Assembly: GCF_013409985.1 (NCBI RefSeq)
Contig: NZ_JACCBY010000003.1
Location: forward strand, 248,001-312,000
Length of the DNA stretch: 64,000 nucleotides
Reading direction: 5' to 3'
From: Sphingomonas melonis
GTDB taxonomy: Bacteria > Pseudomonadota > Alphaproteobacteria > Sphingomonadales > Sphingomonadaceae
Part shown: in pieces, positions 3,980 to 27,527 of the stretch
Numbering within the stretch: the stretch's first letter is position 1
Layout of the letters: each line of letters starts with the position of its first letter
Position numbers and translations under genes: made by a program
Notes under the pieces: generated by a model
What the model was told of the DNA's origin: nothing
The model's database searches: none
What the model saw: the letters and a program-made list of their open reading frames with translations, nothing else

Positions 3980-5779
3980 TTACGCGGCGATCGCGTACGG
4001 CTTGATGTCGCCGCTGAGGTACAGGTTGCGGGCCTTGGCGCGCGACAATTTGCCCGAGCTGGTGCGCGGTAGCGTGCGCGGCGGGATCAGTTCGATGACG
4101 CAGTTCATGCCGGTCACCGAACGGACGCGCTCGCGGATCTCCTCGCGCAGCCGCTGGCGTTCGGCCTCGTCGCTGCTGCGGCACTGGACCAGCACCGCCG
4201 GCGTCTCCTCGCCGCCGGGCGTGGTGATCGCGAAGGCGGCGATGTCGCCCGCCTTGAAGCCGGGCAGCTGCTCGACCGCCCATTCGATGTCCTGCGGCCA
4301 ATGGTTCTTGCCGTTGACGATGATCATGTCCTTGGCGCGGCCGACGATGTAGATGTAGCCGTTCGACATGTACGCCATGTCGCCGGTGTCGAGCCAGCCG
4401 TCGCTCATGCATGCGTCGGTCGCCGCGGAATCGCGGAAATAGCCGACCATGACGCTCGGCCCCTTGCACCACAATTTGCCGATCGCGCCGTCGGGCAGGG
4501 GAGTGCCGTCCTCCTCGCGGATCTCGACCGTCATGTCGCGCACCGGCTTGCCGCAATTGACGATGGCGCGGAAGCGCTGCGGGCGCGGGCCGTCGTTGGC
4601 CGCGATCGAATCGGCGCCGCCGGACAGCTGCGTCTCCTCGACCAGTTCGACGCGGATGCCCTCGCCCGGCGGCATCAGCGACACCGCCAGCGTCGCCTCG
4701 GCGAGGCCGTAGCTGGGCAGGAAGGCGCTCGCCTTGAAGCCGGCGTCGGCGAAGGCGTCGACGAACGCCTGCATCACGTCGGGACGGATCATGTCGGCGC
4801 CGTTGCCCGCGACGCGCCAGCGCGACAGGTCGAAGCGCTGCGACGCCTTGGTCTGCGACGACATGCGGCGCGCGCAGATGTCATAGCCGAAGGTCGGCGA
4901 ATAGCTCAGCGTCGTACCGTCGTGGCGGCTGATGAGGTCGAGCCAGGCAAGCGGGCGGCGCGCGAAATCCTCGGTCTTGAGGTAATCGGTCGAGACCTGG
5001 TTGGCGATCGGCGACAGGAAGCAGCCGACGAGGCCCATGTCGTGATACCAGGGCAGCCAGCTGACGCAGCGATCGGTGCCGTCGGGCGCGATCTCCATGC
5101 CGTGGCTGTGCGCCGCCAGATTGTTGAGCAGCGCGTGGTGGGTGATCGCAACGCCGTGCGGAAAGCGGGTCGAGCCGCTCGAATATTGCAGATAGGCGAT
5201 CGCCTGCCCGTCCGCCTGCGGCAGCGCCGTCGCGGGCGCCGGACGCGCGCCGAACTCGGACCAGTCGAGCCCCTCGGTGCCGGCGAGCCGGGCCGCCTCG
5301 GCCGCCATCGCCGCCAGCTCGGGCGGGAAGATCAGCATCTTGGGTTCGCAGCTGGCGAGCTGGACGCGGAGCTGTTCGATATAGGAATCACGGCCGCCGA
5401 ACGAGGTCGGCAGCGGCAGCGGCACCGGCCAGGCGCCGGCATAGACCGCGCCGAAGAACAGGGCGGCGAATTCCGGCCCGGTCTCGGCGACCAGCGCGAT
5501 GCGATCCTCGGGCTGCACGCCGGCGCCGATCAGGCGATAGGCCATCAGGATCGCATCGGCGCGCAGCTCGGCGAAGGGATAGGGGCGGGCGAGCGCACCG
5601 CGCGCATCGTGGAAGTTGAGGCCGCGCACGCCCTGCGCCGCATAGTCGAGCGCGTCGCCCAGCGTGGCGAAATCGGCATACCGACGGGGCAGGTCGTCCA
5701 GCGTCGGCGTGGCCGCCATCTGGGGCGTCGGCGAAGGCGCAGACTGCTCGGTCATCACAAAATCCTGTTCATTCGCCAT
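3980..5779 (-). CDS. Fatty acyl-AMP ligase (AMP-binding superfamily)
   Basis: 599-residue adenylate-forming enzyme expected to activate a fatty acid to the acyl-AMP, usually for transfer to a carrier protein rather than CoA. The ATP-binding loop reads QYSSGSTRFPHGV (about residue 190). CVSWLPWYHDMGLVGCFL and LSYSPTFGYD are typical of fatty acyl-AMP ligases. The C-terminal hinge is WLDTGDMAYMSNGYIYIVGR, with the final lysine region in RTSSGKLSRAKARNLYL. A second ATG eight codons downstream (MTEQSAP) is possible. No acyl carrier protein, polyketide synthase or CoA-utilising partner lies beside it, so the pathway cannot be named. Divergent from recX. Confidence 0.85.
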   Translation of the reverse strand: MANEQDFVMTEQSAPSPTPQMAATPTLDDLPRRYADFATLGDALDYAAQGVRGLNFHDARGALARPYPFAELRADAILMAYRLIGAGVQPEDRIALVAETGPEFAALFFGAVYAGAWPVPLPLPTSFGGRDSYIEQLRVQLASCEPKMLIFPPELAAMAAEAARLAGTEGLDWSEFGARPAPATALPQADGQAIAYLQYSSGSTRFPHGVAITHHALLNNLAAHSHGMEIAPDGTDRCVSWLPWYHDMGLVGCFLSPIANQVSTDYLKTEDFARRPLAWLDLISRHDGTTLSYSPTFGYDICARRMSSQTKASQRFDLSRWRVAGNGADMIRPDVMQAFVDAFADAGFKASAFLPSYGLAEATLAVSLMPPGEGIRVELVEETQLSGGADSIAANDGPRPQRFRAIVNCGKPVRDMTVEIREEDGTPLPDGAIGKLWCKGPSVMVGYFRDSAATDACMSDGWLDTGDMAYMSNGYIYIVGRAKDMIIVNGKNHWPQDIEWAVEQLPGFKAGDIAAFAITTPGGEETPAVLVQCRSSDEAERQRLREEIRERVRSVTGMNCVIELIPPRTLPRTSSGKLSRAKARNLYLSGDIKPYAIAA

Positions 5780-5852
5780 CGGGCGAAACCATCTTACTGT
5801 GCGCTATAACGCGCGATCATCGTTCTAAATCCGGTGCCAGTGTGGCAACAAC

Positions 5853-6383
5853 ATGGCCATGAGGCAGGAACGGCGCACTCTTCCCCCGCTCGATGCCGCC
5901 GCTTTGGAGCGATTGGCGCTGCGCTATGTCGAGCGGTTCGCGACGACGCGCGGCAAATTGGCCGACTATCTGCACCGCAAGATCCGCGAGCGGGGCTGGG
6001 ACGGCGAGGCCGCCGATCCGCAGGCGCTGGCGCAGCGGATGGCCGATCTCGGCTATGTCGACGACCGGCTGTACGCCGAGAGCAAGGCGGCGGCGCTGGC
6101 ACGGCGCGGGCTGGGCGCGCGGCGGGTGACGATGGCGCTGCGCCAGGCGCGGGTCGGGGAGGCGGAGACCGAAGAGCTGGCGCCGGCGATCCGCGAACAG
6201 GCGGCGGCAGCGGCGCTGACCTTCGCCCGCCGCAAGCGGATCGGGCCGTTCGGGCCGCCCAACGACGACCGCGCGGTCCGCGACAAGCAACTCGCCGCCA
6301 TGCTTCGCGCCGGACATGCAATGGCCTTGTCCCAACGGATTGTCGCAGCGCGGGACGAAGCGGAGCTGGGAGATTTCGACTAG
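5853..6383 (+). CDS. recX: Regulatory protein RecX
   Basis: 176-residue RecX-family protein, expected to modulate RecA filaments in recombination and the SOS response. The helical repeats are visible: ALRYVERFATTRGKLADYLH, then GYVDDRLYAESKAAALARRG, followed by GARRVTMALRQARV. The tail is less conserved. Length and helix content fit the family. It sits apart from any recA gene, which is common in alphaproteobacteria. An alternative ATG lies two codons downstream at 5859. No strong Shine-Dalgarno is present, and the short gap to the divergent ligase gene must hold both promoters. The cold-shock gene follows 64 nt later on the same strand. Confidence 0.85.
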   Translation: MAMRQERRTLPPLDAAALERLALRYVERFATTRGKLADYLHRKIRERGWDGEAADPQALAQRMADLGYVDDRLYAESKAAALARRGLGARRVTMALRQARVGEAETEELAPAIREQAAAAALTFARRKRIGPFGPPNDDRAVRDKQLAAMLRAGHAMALSQRIVAARDEAELGDFD

Positions 6384-6447
6384 ACCCCCCTTTCGCAATT
6401 GCAGCAGCGATGAACCGTGCTAGCGTAGCGTCAATAGGGGTGCAGTG

Positions 6448-7050
6448 ATGCGTAGCGAGCCGCAATGGGAGGGCGACGAGCGCGACGACGGGGTGACGCC
6501 CGGCGACCGTGCTGGTGTGCAATCCGCGACCAAGGACGGCGAGGGGCCGATCACCATCGCCGGGGTGATCAAATGGTTCGACGTGACGCGCGGCTTCGGC
6601 TTCGCGGTCGCCGACGATCGCGCGCTCGGCGACGTTCTGATCCATTTTTCCGTCCTGCAACCCTATGGCCGCCGCAGCCTGCCCGAGGGCGCGCGGGTCG
6701 AGACGCTCGCGGTGCAGCGTGGCCGTGGCTATCAGGCGCGCGAAGTGGTCGCGATCGACCTGTCGAACGCCGTCGAAGAGGCGCCGCGCCCGCCGCGCGC
6801 CGCCGACCGCGTCGATCCGGTTGCCTTGATCGACGAGGCGGGGCCGTTCGAGGGCGTCGCGGTCAAATGGTTCAACCGGTTGAAGGGATACGGCTTCCTG
6901 GTGCGCGACAGCGATGGCAGCGACGTGTTCGTCCATATGGAGACGCTGCGCCGCGCGGGCGTCGGCGCGATCGAGCCCGAACAGCGGCTGCGCGCGCGCA
7001 TCGTCGCCGGCCGCAAGGGCCCGCTCGCCGTCAGCGTCGAGCCGGCCTAG
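6448..7050 (+). CDS. Protein with two cold-shock domains
   Basis: 200-residue protein built of two cold-shock (OB-fold, single-strand nucleic acid binding) domains. Domain 1 spans roughly residues 28-95, with [16 protein letters not shown] and VLIHF as RNP1- and RNP2-like motifs. Domain 2 spans roughly 133-200, with [14 protein letters not shown] and VFVHM. The linker is Arg/Pro-rich and the first 25 residues are acidic. Classical Csp proteins are single domains of about 70 residues; the tandem form is recurrent in alphaproteobacteria. A GTG directly before the ATG (6445) could also start it. Only 4 nt separate it from the next gene, so co-transcription is likely. Likely role: RNA chaperone or transcript regulation, by family. 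Confidence 0.88.
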
Positions 7051-16967: not shown

Positions 16968-18383
16968 ATGAGGTTGGGCGCACTCACCGGCGGCAACGAA
17001 GAGGCGATCGTCACCGGCTTCGCGATCGACCATCGCAAGGTCGCCCCCGGCACCGTCTTCGGCGCCTTCCAGGGCGCACGCGTCAATGGCGAGGATTATA
17101 TCGCCGACGCGGTCCGGTCGGGCGCGATCGCGGTGGTGACCCGCCCGGGCGTGCCGGTCGAGGGCGCCTTCGCGATCGTCGACGACAATCCGCGCGAACG
17201 CTTCGCCCGCGCCGCCGCCGCCTTCTTCGCGCCCTTTCCGGAGGTCGCGGTGGCGGTCACCGGCACCAACGGCAAGACCTCGACGGTCGAGATGACGCGG
17301 CAGCTGTGGCGGATGGCGGGGGCGCATGCCGCCTCGATCGGCACGCTCGGCGTCACCACCGCCGACGAGCGCGTGACCACCGGCCTGACCACGCCCGACG
17401 TCGTCACCTTCCTGTCCAACGTCGCCGGCCTCGCGCGCGAGGGGATCACCCATGTCGCCTTCGAGGCGTCGAGCCACGGCCTCGTCCAGTATCGCACCGA
17501 GGGGCTGACCGTCGCCGCCGCAGCCTTCACCAATCTCAGCCGCGACCATCTCGATTATCACGGCGACATGGGCGCCTATCTCACCGCCAAGCTGCGTCTG
17601 TTCTCCGAGGTGCTGAGCCCGGAGGGGACCGCCGTGGTCTGGGCCGACGACATGTATGCGCCGCGGGTGATCGACCTGGCGCAGGCGCGCGGCAACCGGC
17701 TGGTGACGGTCGGCGAGCGCGGCGCCACGCTGCGGCTGGTCGAGCGCGACCCGACGCTGCTGGGGCAGGGGCTGACGATCGAGGCGGAGGGGCAGACGCA
17801 CCGCGTCATGCTGCCGCTGATCGGCGGCTATCAGGCGGCGAACGCGCTGGTCGCGGCGGGGCTGGTGATCGCCACCGGCGGCGACGTGGCGCGGACGATC
17901 GCCGATCTCGCGCGGCTGCAACCGGTGCGCGGCCGGCTGGAGCGCGCGGCGATCGCGCGCAGCGGCGCGCCCGTCTATGTCGATTACGCGCATACCCCCG
18001 ATGCGCTGGAGGCGGCGATCGCCGCGCTCAAGCCGCATGCCGGCGGCCGCCTGATCGTCGTCTTCGGTGCCGGCGGCGACCGTGACCCCGGCAAGCGCGA
18101 GACGATGGGCCAGGTCGCGCAGATGCAGGCCGACCTCGCCATCGTCACCGACGACAATCCGCGCACCGAAGACCCCGCCGCGATCCGCGCCGCGATCCTG
18201 AAGGGCGCCACCAACGCCCGCGAGATCGGCGACCGTCGCGAGGCGATCGCCGCGGCGATCGGCGAGGCGGGGCCGCAGGACATCGTGCTGATCGCCGGCA
18301 AGGGCCACGAACAGGGCCAGATCGTCGGCGACATGGAACTGCCCTTCGACGACGTCACCGTCGCGCGGGAGTATGCGGCGTGA
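16968..18383 (+). CDS. murE: UDP-MurNAc-tripeptide synthetase (meso-DAP adding)
   Basis: 471-residue Mur ligase adding meso-diaminopimelate to UDP-MurNAc-L-Ala-D-Glu using ATP. The N-terminal domain binds UDP. The P-loop is VTGTNGKTSTVEM (about residue 99), and the carbamoylated-lysine region follows FTNLSRDHLDYHGDM. The amino-acid selector DNPR (about 396-399) is the form that binds meso-DAP rather than lysine, and the C-terminus has LIAGKGHEQ. A clear GAGGAGGG Shine-Dalgarno precedes the ATG. The coupling chain of the dcw operon breaks after this gene, where a repeat element is inserted. Confidence 0.95.
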   Translation: MRLGALTGGNEEAIVTGFAIDHRKVAPGTVFGAFQGARVNGEDYIADAVRSGAIAVVTRPGVPVEGAFAIVDDNPRERFARAAAAFFAPFPEVAVAVTGTNGKTSTVEMTRQLWRMAGAHAASIGTLGVTTADERVTTGLTTPDVVTFLSNVAGLAREGITHVAFEASSHGLVQYRTEGLTVAAAAFTNLSRDHLDYHGDMGAYLTAKLRLFSEVLSPEGTAVVWADDMYAPRVIDLAQARGNRLVTVGERGATLRLVERDPTLLGQGLTIEAEGQTHRVMLPLIGGYQAANALVAAGLVIATGGDVARTIADLARLQPVRGRLERAAIARSGAPVYVDYAHTPDALEAAIAALKPHAGGRLIVVFGAGGDRDPGKRETMGQVAQMQADLAIVTDDNPRTEDPAAIRAAILKGATNAREIGDRREAIAAAIGEAGPQDIVLIAGKGHEQGQIVGDMELPFDDVTVAREYAA

Positions 18384-24629: not shown

Positions 24630-24676
24630 TCGCCCGTCGTCGCATGTTCGGGTCCGACCGCGTCCTCACCTACCCC

Positions 24677-24781
24677 GTCACCCCGGACTCGTTCCGGGGT
24701 CCACTCTGCGGCGAGGGGAACGGCTTGAAGCGCGAGCGTGGGGTTGAGGCGCGGTGGACCCCGGAACGAGTCCGGGGTGAC
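24677..24781. repeat. 28-bp-arm palindromic repeat between murG and murC (family A)
   Basis: Arms at 24677-24704 and 24754-24781 are perfect 28-nt inverted copies. Each contains a self-complementary CCCCGGACTCGTTCCGGGG-like core and starts GTCACC. The asymmetric centre begins CTCTGCGGCGAGG. Two more copies with the same arms and centre motif occur at 41732-41837 and, inverted, at 55259-55362. No open reading frame is inside. Confidence 0.8.
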
Positions 24782-24849
24782 GGATGTCTTGGGGCGCCCG
24801 TCCCGGTCTCATCGGCGGCGCCTTCTTCCTGCGTAGCGAGGATTCGCGC

Positions 24850-26268
24850 ATGATCCGCGGCGTCGCGACCGATATCGGGCCGATCCATTTCGTCGGCATC
24901 GGCGGCATCGGCATGTCCGGCATCGCCGAGGTGATGAAGAACCTCGGCTATACCGTGCAGGGCTCCGACGTCGCCGAGGGCTATGTCGTGCAGGGATTGC
25001 GCGACAAGGGCATCGCAGTGACGATCGGCCATGCCGCCGCCAATGTCGCCGACGCGGCGGTGGTGGTCACCTCGACCGCGATCACCCGCACCAATCCGGA
25101 GGTCGAGGCGGCGCTGGAGCGGCGCATCCCCGTCGTCCGCCGCGCCGAGATGCTCGCCGAGCTGATGCGCCTCAAATCGACCGTCGCGGTCGCCGGCACG
25201 CACGGCAAGACGACGACGACCTCGATGGTCGCGGCGCTGCTCGATGCCGGCGGGATCGATCCGACCGTCATCAACGGCGGCATCATCAACAGCTACGGCT
25301 CGAACGCGCGATTGGGCGCGAGCGACTGGATGGTGGTCGAGGCGGACGAGAGCGACGGCAGCTTCCTGCGCCTCGACGGCACGATCGCGGTGGTCACCAA
25401 CATCGATCCCGAGCATCTCGACCATTACGGCTCGTTCGACGCGGTCAAGGACGCCTTCGTCGAGTTCGTCGAGAACGTGCCCTTCTACGGCGCGGCGCTG
25501 CTTTGCCTCGATCACCCCGAGGTACAGAACGTGCTGCCGCGCGTCCGCGACCGCCGCGTCGTCACCTATGGCTTCTCGGCACAGGCGGATATCCGCGGCG
25601 TCAACGTCACGCCGGTGCCGGGCGGCAACCGCTTCGAGTGCATCGTGCGCGAGCGGGACGGCACCACCCGCTCGATCGAGGGGGTCGAGCTGCCGATGCC
25701 CGGTCGCCACAATGTCCAGAACGCGCTTGCCGCGATCGGCGTCGCGCTCGAACTCGGCATCCCCGATGCGACGATCCAGCAGGGCTTCTCCGCCTTCGGC
25801 GGCGTCAAGCGGCGCTTCACCAAGGTCGGCGAGGTCGCGGTCGACGGCGGGTTCGTCACGATCATCGACGATTACGGCCATCATCCGGTCGAGATCCGCG
25901 CCGTGCTCGCCGCGGCGCGCGAGGGCGCGCGCGGCCGGGTGATCGCGGTTGTCCAGCCACACCGCTATTCGCGGCTCGGCAATCTGATGGAGGACTTCCA
26001 GACCGCGTTCAACGACGCCGACCGCGTGCTCGTCACCCCGGTCTATGCCGCGGGCGAGGCGCCGGTCGAGGGCGTCGATGCGCAGGCGCTGGTCGACGGG
26101 CTCAAGCGCCGCGGCCATCGCTCGGCGACGACGATCGCCGATGCCGATGCGCTGGCGGACGAACTCGCCGCGACGATCCAGGCGGACGACATGATCGTCT
26201 GCCTCGGCGCGGGCGACATCACCAAATGGGCGGCGGGGCTGGCCACGGCGATCGGAGAGCGGCGATGA
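24850..26268 (+). CDS. murC: UDP-MurNAc:L-alanine ligase
   Basis: 472-residue Mur ligase adding L-Ala, the first peptide-side step. Motifs are [18 protein letters not shown] at the N-terminus, the P-loop [18 protein letters not shown] (about residue 116), [28 protein letters not shown] and [17 protein letters not shown] use the ATG at 24850, preceded by GCGAGGA. An in-frame ATG 22 codons upstream would add residues unlike the family and translate the repeat flank. The stop overlaps the ATG of orf66 (ATGA). Confidence 0.95.
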
Positions 26269-26465
26269 ACGACTGGTTCGATGCGGGGCTGAAGCTCCAG
26301 AAGCAGATGCTCGACGCGCAGCGTAAGTCGCTGGAGGCCGGCAGCCATGCGATTGGCGCCGGCGAGGCACTGGTCCAGGCGCAGGAGGCGACCCGCAAGG
26401 CCGCCGAGGCCAATCTCGCCGCGATCCAGGCGTGGACGCGACTATGGGGTGTCGGCCCTTGGTGA
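26265..26465 (+). CDS. 66-residue amphipathic helical protein inside the dcw operon (orf66)
   Basis: Unrecognised small protein, starting [20 protein letters not shown] and ending [10 protein letters not shown]. The middle is Ala/Gln/Glu-rich and predicted by eye to be one long amphipathic helix (heptad-like spacing of L, A and I), with tryptophans at both ends. This pattern recalls short phasin-like or membrane-surface-binding helices. There is no signal peptide or transmembrane segment. Both ends are coupled: ATGA with murC and GTGA with murB. That arrangement makes translation very likely. A role in wall synthesis is only inferred from position. Confidence 0.75.
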
Positions 26466-27364
26466 ATGCGGACACCATCGCGCTGCCGGCCGTGCGCGGG
26501 CGCCTGACCGAGGGCGCGCCGCTGGCGCCGCTCGTCTGGTTCAAGTCTGGCGGCACCGCACAATGGCTGTTCGAACCCCGGGATGCCGACGATCTCGCCG
26601 ACTTCCTGCGCGATCTCGACCCGGCGGTGCCGGTGATGGCGCTCGGGCTCGGCTCGAACCTGATCGTCCGCGACGGCGGCGTGCCCGGCGTGGCGGTGCG
26701 GCTCGGCAAGGCGTTCGCGCAGGTCGAGCGGCTCGACGACACGACGCTGCGCTGCGGCGGCGGCGCGAGCGGCATCCTCGTCTCCTCGACCGCGCGCGAT
26801 GCCGGGATCGGCGGCGTCGAATTCCTGCGCTCGATCCCCGGTACGGTCGGCGGCTTCGTGCGGATGAACGGCGGCGCCTATGGCCGCGAGGTCAAGGACG
26901 TGCTGGTCGACTGCGACGTCGTGCTGCGCTCGGGCGAGCGCCGCACGCTGGCGGCGGCCGATCTCGGCTACACCTATCGCCACAGCACGCTGCCCGCGGG
27001 CGCGGTGGTCGTCGCGGCGACCTTCCGCGGCCACCCCGCCGAGCCCGCCGCGATCGCCGCCGAGATGGACCGGATCGCCGCCGAGCGCGAGGCGTCGCAG
27101 CCGCTGCGCTCGAAGACCGGCGGCTCGACCTTCAAGAACCCCGCCGGCCACAAGGCGTGGGCGTTGATCGACGCCGCCGGCTGTCGCGGCCTGACCCGTG
27201 GCGATGCGCAGGTGTCGGAGAAACATTGTAATTTCCTGCTCAACCTCGGCTCGGCCAGCTCGGCGGAGATCGAGGCGCTGGGCGAAGAGGTACGCGACAG
27301 GGTGAAGGCACATTCGGGCGTGACATTGGAATGGGAAATCCAGCGGGTTGGGGTGGCGAAGTGA
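26462..27364 (+). CDS. murB: UDP-N-acetylenolpyruvoylglucosamine reductase
   Basis: 300-residue FAD enzyme that reduces enolpyruvyl-UDP-GlcNAc to UDP-MurNAc with NADPH. Motifs are LVWFKSGGTAQWLFEP, the FAD loop LGLGSNLIVRDGG, FLRSIPGTVGGFVRMNGGAYG split around the flavin, SKTGGSTFKNPAGHKAW with the catalytic serine, and VSEKHCNFLLN. It starts with GTG overlapping the orf66 stop (GTGA); no ATG at the right place exists. The coupling chain ends here at a third repeat. Confidence 0.95.
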   Translation: MNADTIALPAVRGRLTEGAPLAPLVWFKSGGTAQWLFEPRDADDLADFLRDLDPAVPVMALGLGSNLIVRDGGVPGVAVRLGKAFAQVERLDDTTLRCGGGASGILVSSTARDAGIGGVEFLRSIPGTVGGFVRMNGGAYGREVKDVLVDCDVVLRSGERRTLAAADLGYTYRHSTLPAGAVVVAATFRGHPAEPAAIAAEMDRIAAEREASQPLRSKTGGSTFKNPAGHKAWALIDAAGCRGLTRGDAQVSEKHCNFLLNLGSASSAEIEALGEEVRDRVKAHSGVTLEWEIQRVGVAK

Positions 27365-27382
27365 TGGCGACGACGATCAATT

Positions 27383-27523
27383 CCTCCCTCGCTTTAGCGG
27401 TGGAGGGGGACCGCCCGGCTCAGCCGGGTGGTGGAGGGGGCGTTTCCCCAAACGCGAATCTCACCGTATCCTCCCCCTCCGTCACGCTCTCCGGGCGCGC
27501 CACCTCCCCCTGGCGGGGGAGGA
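27383..27523. repeat. Paired-hairpin repeat between murB and ddl (family B)
   Basis: The left end CCTCCCTCGC and right end GGCGGGGGAGGA are inverted, with internal hairpins (for example CCCGGCTCAGCCGGG) and a CGTTTCCCC segment. Its right half, read in reverse, matches 55407-55459; its left half matches both ends of the element at 54036-54163. The right terminus GGGGGAGGA lies 4 nt from the ddl ATG and serves as its Shine-Dalgarno. Confidence 0.7.
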
Positions 27524-27527
27524 TTTG

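Follow-up and report, generated by a model that had tools for sequence, protein, structure and literature searches.

A conserved 66-codon gene overlapping both murC and murB in Sphingomonas melonis, with a predicted coiled-coil product

The window considered here is a stretch of 64,000 nucleotides of Sphingomonas melonis (contig NZ_JACCBY010000003.1, positions 248,001 to 312,000; source genome 4.41 Mb in 14 contigs). A small open reading frame (ORF) lies in it between two genes of peptidoglycan precursor synthesis, and the features of this junction are as follows.

24850..26268, forward strand: murC, with the Pfam domains Mur_ligase, Mur_ligase_M and Mur_ligase_C
26254..26259, forward strand: GGAGAG, a Shine-Dalgarno-like sequence 5 nt upstream of the ATG of the ORF, read from the sequence
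26265..26268, forward strand: ATGA overlap of the ORF start and the murC stop, read from the sequence; 79 of 84 loci share the -3 offset
26265..26465, forward strand: small protein gene of 66 amino acids, recognized from its frame, its homologues in the genus and its pN/pS
26268..26447, forward strand: codons 2–61, predicted continuous helix with a heptad repeat (AlphaFold2, periodicity, column statistics)
26462..26465, forward strand: GTGA overlap of the murB start and the ORF stop, read from the sequence; in 74 of 84 loci an xTGA start leads into the open murB frame
26462..27364, forward strand: murB, whose GTG start overlaps the ORF stop, with the Pfam domains FAD_binding_4 and MurB_C

The ORF (26265–26465) starts with ATG, ends with TGA (26463–26465) and has no internal stop. 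Its first codon runs into the murC stop (TGA, 26266–26268) and the murB GTG lies at 26462, so both of the overlaps reported in the initial annotation, ATGA with murC and GTGA with murB, can be read directly. The murC start was set at the ATG at 24850, the listed frame being open upstream to 24784. Pfam identified MurC by its three Mur_ligase domains, and confirmed MurB and the neighbouring Ddl. Purine-rich cores, some of merely three bases, precede 74 of the 84 member starts; the GGAGAG in the window sits within murC codons, so that selection on this motif itself appears indistinguishable from selection on murC. The murG-murC gap contains a perfect 30-nt inverted repeat (window positions 24675–24704 and 24754–24783), a 26-base core of which is present at five places in the window when up to 3 mismatches are allowed (0 expected); judged by its sequence, this seems to be a palindromic element of the REP or MITE type. 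The murB-ddl gap (27365–27527, 163 nt) looks repeat-like by eye, as do some of the murC-murB gaps of genomes without the ORF, and no inverted repeat of at least 14 nt was found in it.

An open frame is by itself weak evidence for a gene in such GC-rich DNA, because 84 ORFs of at least 60 amino acids occur between positions 18000 and 34000 of the window. A search with the single sequence matched 65 of 151 genomes of the genus and a 24-row profile matched 67, with no stop inside any match; this conservation excludes chance as an explanation for the ORF, and the frame is not broken in relatives. By coordinates, murB follows directly after 68 of the 69 matched places, and the same was seen for the 69th (genome G011, locus L186) once its locus was read. 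Compared with the five nearest genomes in the sample of the genus, the ORF had pN/pS values of 0.10, 0.13, 0.20, 0.21 and 0.21 (bootstrap upper bounds 0.21–0.41), murC values of 0.12–0.19 and murB values of 0.14–0.26, a clear synonymous bias. Two further close named relatives (L033 and L035) gave 0.18 and 0.17. For two other pairs (L009 and L010) the values for the ORF (0.33 and 0.40) exceeded those for murC (0.25 and 0.24) and were near those for murB (0.33 and 0.46), and in the six most distant pairs tried, for which synonymous sites are probably near saturation, they reached 0.33–0.51. The GC content at codon positions 1, 2 and 3 of the ORF (0.70, 0.49 and 0.84) resembles that of murC (0.70, 0.46 and 0.91) and murB (0.72, 0.52 and 0.90). 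The ORF is thus almost certainly a real protein-coding gene, as the initial annotation had supposed, and its product is under purifying selection, with the 4-nt overlaps kept at both neighbours.

The overlaps were read in 84 member loci, 67 from the genus and 17 from other genera. The ORF starts at position -3 relative to the murC stop in 79 of them (77 on a strict count, since in two this codon is CTG and the ATG directly after it is the more plausible start); four loci have the start at 0 (TGATG) and one has it at +3. On the murB side, 74 of the 84 loci have an xTGA start in the murB frame that is open into murB (58 GTGA, 15 ATGA and 1 TTGA), whereas nine of the remaining ten have no in-frame start there and one runs into a stop. 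The double-overlap arrangement is, therefore, kept across species, and ribosomes presumably use these overlapping starts. Member proteins are 63–66 amino acids long in 78 of the 84 loci, the others having 39, 55, 57, 72, 72 and 78. In the 39-residue member (locus L187, genome G051), about 25 residues are missing from the middle of the protein and some 194 nt separate the ORF from murB; this gene has perhaps been caught in the course of loss. In one genome (G060, contig C1) the ORF and murB occur twice with equal scores, at 5562–6643 and 3653502–3654583, near both ends of a 3.67-Mb contig, which is probably an unremoved overlap of a circular assembly.

The distribution of the gene is patchy. 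It was found in 67 of the 151 genomes of the genus; MurB was matched without the ORF in 82, and two gave no MurB match. At 80 of the 82 non-carrier junctions, which were read, there is no similar ORF between murC and murB; the two genes overlap or are separated by gaps of up to 308 nt, some repeat-like by eye. Remnants of the ORF were sought in 98 non-carrier junctions and none was found (the lowest E value, 0.66, belonged to one strand of L202). With the first profile, 19 of 199 Sphingomonadaceae genomes matched, one of them (G273) by chance, and reading 20 further junctions of the family revealed two members that this profile had missed, one of which had already been matched by the wider profile of the order-level search. 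The profile counts are, for this reason, lower bounds. A still wider profile matched 25 of the 199 genomes; 23 of these matches were verified between murC and murB, in 16 of the 96 genera, and the other two lie elsewhere and were set aside as chance. The matches in G273 (L070), G333 (L267) and G267 (L268) were dropped as chance, as none adjoins murC or murB; that in G273 presumably reads like the small subunit of exonuclease VII. In the order sample, 9 of 196 genomes match, all of them Sphingomonadaceae, and in the class sample 3 of 289, namely the window itself and two chance matches (L196 and L197), rejected because they are partial, L197 contains a stop, and any likeness of either region to murC or murB stays at noise level. 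Two candidate paralogues in the source genome (E 0.44 and 0.72) lie in frames unlike that of the ORF and were also rejected. Within the samples searched, the gene family thus appears to be confined to Sphingomonadaceae. The record titles of 13 of the 15 named loci found with the protein say Sphingomonas; the other two, Microvirga sp. SRT01 (L041) and Arthrobacter sp. TPD3018 (L047), carry a Sphingomonas murC-ORF-murB locus, and these record names look wrong. Sphingomonas aquatilis DSM 15581, a laboratory strain, is also a carrier (83% identical).

Many relatives lack the gene, so that in evolutionary terms it is dispensable, and since 82 of the 149 MurB-positive genomes of the genus have no match, MurC and MurB evidently work without it. 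A quickly built tree of 184 MurC C-termini, 86 of them from carriers, rests on a single protein fragment and does not distinguish gain from loss; on it the carrier state requires 27 changes, at least 13 of them on well-supported branches, against about 61 for shuffled labels. Distances between ORF proteins follow those between MurC proteins (Mantel r 0.61, against 0.15 for the best of 999 shuffles), in keeping with a gene that has mostly been inherited vertically together with murC. Given the shared site, the overlaps and the agreement of the distances, the simplest reading is that the gene is old and has been lost many times; spread among lineages by recombination exchange is a conceivable alternative.

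AlphaFold2 predicted, from the single sequence, one helix over residues 2–61 (best of five models: pLDDT 82.7, pTM 0.44; other four: pLDDT 71.2–64.8) and, with 16 aligned sequences, a helix over residues 3–61 at low confidence (pLDDT 63.8, pTM 0.32). The mean hydrophobicity of the family has a periodicity peak at 103 degrees per residue, or 3.5 residues per turn, which none of 2000 shuffles of the profile reached; the median peak of individual members is at 102.5 degrees (IQR 102.5–103, in the 81 of 84 members that are long enough), and power is 0.124 at 103 degrees against 0.047 at 100 (mean squared ratio 2.6). The most conserved heptad column consists of F5, Q12, Q19, G/A26, G33, Q40, A47, W54 and W61 (position 54 is I in the window protein and W in most members), with a mean entropy of 0.92 against 1.52–2.25 for the other six phases, and the column preceding it of W4, L/M11, A18, A25, A32, A39, A46, A53 and L60. 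The heptad phase differs by just 12 degrees between the two halves of the protein, and the extra residues of two members, about 7 in L032 and 14 in L186, look by eye like tandem heptads. The lengths of 39 (L187) and 55 residues (L184) are not whole-heptad changes and count against a coiled coil, and over residues 2–27 conservation alone gives no helical period (p 0.956; hydrophobicity p 0.07). Tryptophan lies near each end of the window protein, as first noted, at residues 4, 57, 61 and 66; W57 and W61 are invariant in 57 aligned members, and the C-terminal WxxxW is kept in 86 of 88 distinct members, L025 and L027 each lacking one Trp. The product is probably a single long helix, soluble and some eight heptads in length, with an Ala/Gly/Gln stripe and aromatic ends, forming a self-associating coiled coil. 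A helical hairpin that keeps the heptad register would be another possible fold.

At E up to 10, the window protein had no match in either Pfam or NCBIfam. The 57 members gave only scattered weak matches to Pfam (25 families, E up to 10; best DUF4508, E 0.0022, in two members) and none that was convincing to NCBIfam, among the matches listed (25 of 29 families); the best E value of a profile search of the PDB was 0.43, and a fold search with the lone helix gave no match. Alanine-zipper coiled coils (Lpp/OprI, PF11839) have the small-residue heptad stripe in common with the ORF protein and score at noise level (Pfam, 5 of 57 members, best E 0.42; NCBIfam, 3 of 57, best E 0.16 among the matches listed), but the ORF protein, unlike them, has neither an N-terminal signal peptide nor a lipobox Cys (Cys fraction 0.0 in the family alignment). 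In Rhodobacterales, a small gene between murC and murB encodes DUF2484, a membrane protein; this is likewise an insertion at the murC-murB junction in alphaproteobacteria. PF10658, which we take to be DUF2484, is absent among the Pfam matches of the 57 members. In open-licence full texts, no paper was found that describes a gene at this junction or that uses the name DUF2484, and the portions available of the general literature on the dcw cluster and the cell wall, including PMC9275681, mention no gene there.

The double overlap would allow ribosomes that end murC to restart on the ORF and then on murB, and the product would for this reason be made beside MurC and MurB. There it may act as a non-essential coiled-coil adaptor or scaffold, with the nearly invariant C-terminal WxxxW docking on MurB, MurC or another wall protein, and such docking could make precursor synthesis more efficient at the neighbouring MurB and MurC steps. 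An adaptor role for the two enzymes is plausible; the whole chain, from co-translation to a Mur-directed function, is given a probability of roughly 0.3. Co-translation also invites another explanation, in which the ORF does no more than hand ribosomes on from murC to murB, the peptide being of no consequence. The overlaps would suit such a relay, but purifying selection acts on the peptide much as it does on MurC and MurB, and non-carriers manage with direct murC-murB contact or with the gaps described above; this explanation is already disfavoured and most improbable. Production in a fixed ratio to the enzymes would equally serve a small partner that tunes the activity of MurB or MurC downwards, and hence precursor supply, and the repeated changes of state on the tree would come easily to a regulator. 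Long coiled coils are, however, unusual as enzyme inhibitors, and negative regulation seems decidedly unlikely. The helix might instead lie on the inner membrane by a hydrophobic face and its Trp ends and bring the Mur enzymes there: windows of 18 residues have hydrophobic moments of up to 0.55, and Trp is found near both ends. The period is nevertheless 3.5, where an amphipathic helix lying on a surface has 3.6, conservation is strongest in a stripe of Ala, Gly and Gln between aromatic ends, and the window protein has seven acidic (D/E) and seven basic (K/R) residues, all of which makes a peripheral membrane protein unlikely. The amphipathic, Ala/Gln-rich helix of the initial annotation thus fits less well as a membrane-surface helix than as a heptad coiled coil.

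A phasin-like pattern had also been suggested, which would make the product a protein of polyester (PHA) granules. Phasins (Phasin_2, PF09361; PhaM) do resemble it in their Ala-rich amphipathic helices, three of the 57 members match NCBIfam PhaM weakly (best E 0.0056, among the matches listed), and PhaC occurs in 150 of the 151 genomes of the genus, so that granules are possible; this co-occurrence cannot discriminate, since carriers and non-carriers have PhaC alike. None of the 57 members matches Phasin_2 (Pfam, E up to 10). In hhalign comparisons, main phasins or all phasins gave probabilities of 0.1–0.8%, and nine second-type phasins 11.2–13.5% (E 0.002–0.003), a score reached by none of 100 column shuffles but by 6 of 52 circular shifts; without two deviant rows (L243 and L244) the probability fell to 2.4–5.4%, and 21 of 52 shifts reached the score. 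Over all choices of second-type rows the probability ranged from 2.3 to 13.5%. As some circular shifts reproduce it, much of the faint likeness to second-type phasins is explained by a shared heptad rhythm and composition. Sphingomonads make true phasins, and two Phasin_2 proteins are encoded at other sites of the source genome, one of them some 1.4 kb away from the phaC match; the ORF protein differs in being shorter, not beside phaC and set apart by its heptad stripe and C-terminal WxxxW. Homology to phasins is not convincing, and a phasin function is very unlikely. About as probable as the adaptor role is that a coiled-coil protein whose function has nothing to do with the wall sits in the operon for steady expression, the overlaps sparing murC-murB coupling. 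The patchy presence of the gene and the working of the wall enzymes in non-carriers are in keeping with such a hitch-hiker, as is the fact that in none of the 84 member loci is the ORF, with its own start and stop in each, fused to MurC or MurB. A pure hitch-hiker should sometimes move, however, and the verified homologues are all at the murC-murB junction, matches elsewhere being chance-like. A soluble, self-associating coiled coil that is dispensable yet selected fits an accessory scaffold and a hitch-hiking gene equally, and the position in the operon may reflect convenient expression alone.

The scaffold reading can be taken further, more speculatively: the protein might be the founding member of an unnamed family of coiled-coil scaffolds that hold MurC and MurB, perhaps with further Mur enzymes, together in Sphingomonadaceae, a family that joined the junction without breaking its coupling, was repeatedly lost and would be an optional organizer of the cytoplasmic wall-precursor pathway. 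Few bacterial operons have been studied as thoroughly as the dcw cluster, and a selected gene for which neither family nor name was found lies within it. If its product does scaffold Mur enzymes, the coexistence of carriers and non-carriers in a single genus would offer a natural experiment to ask whether the enzymes of cytoplasmic precursor synthesis function as a complex.
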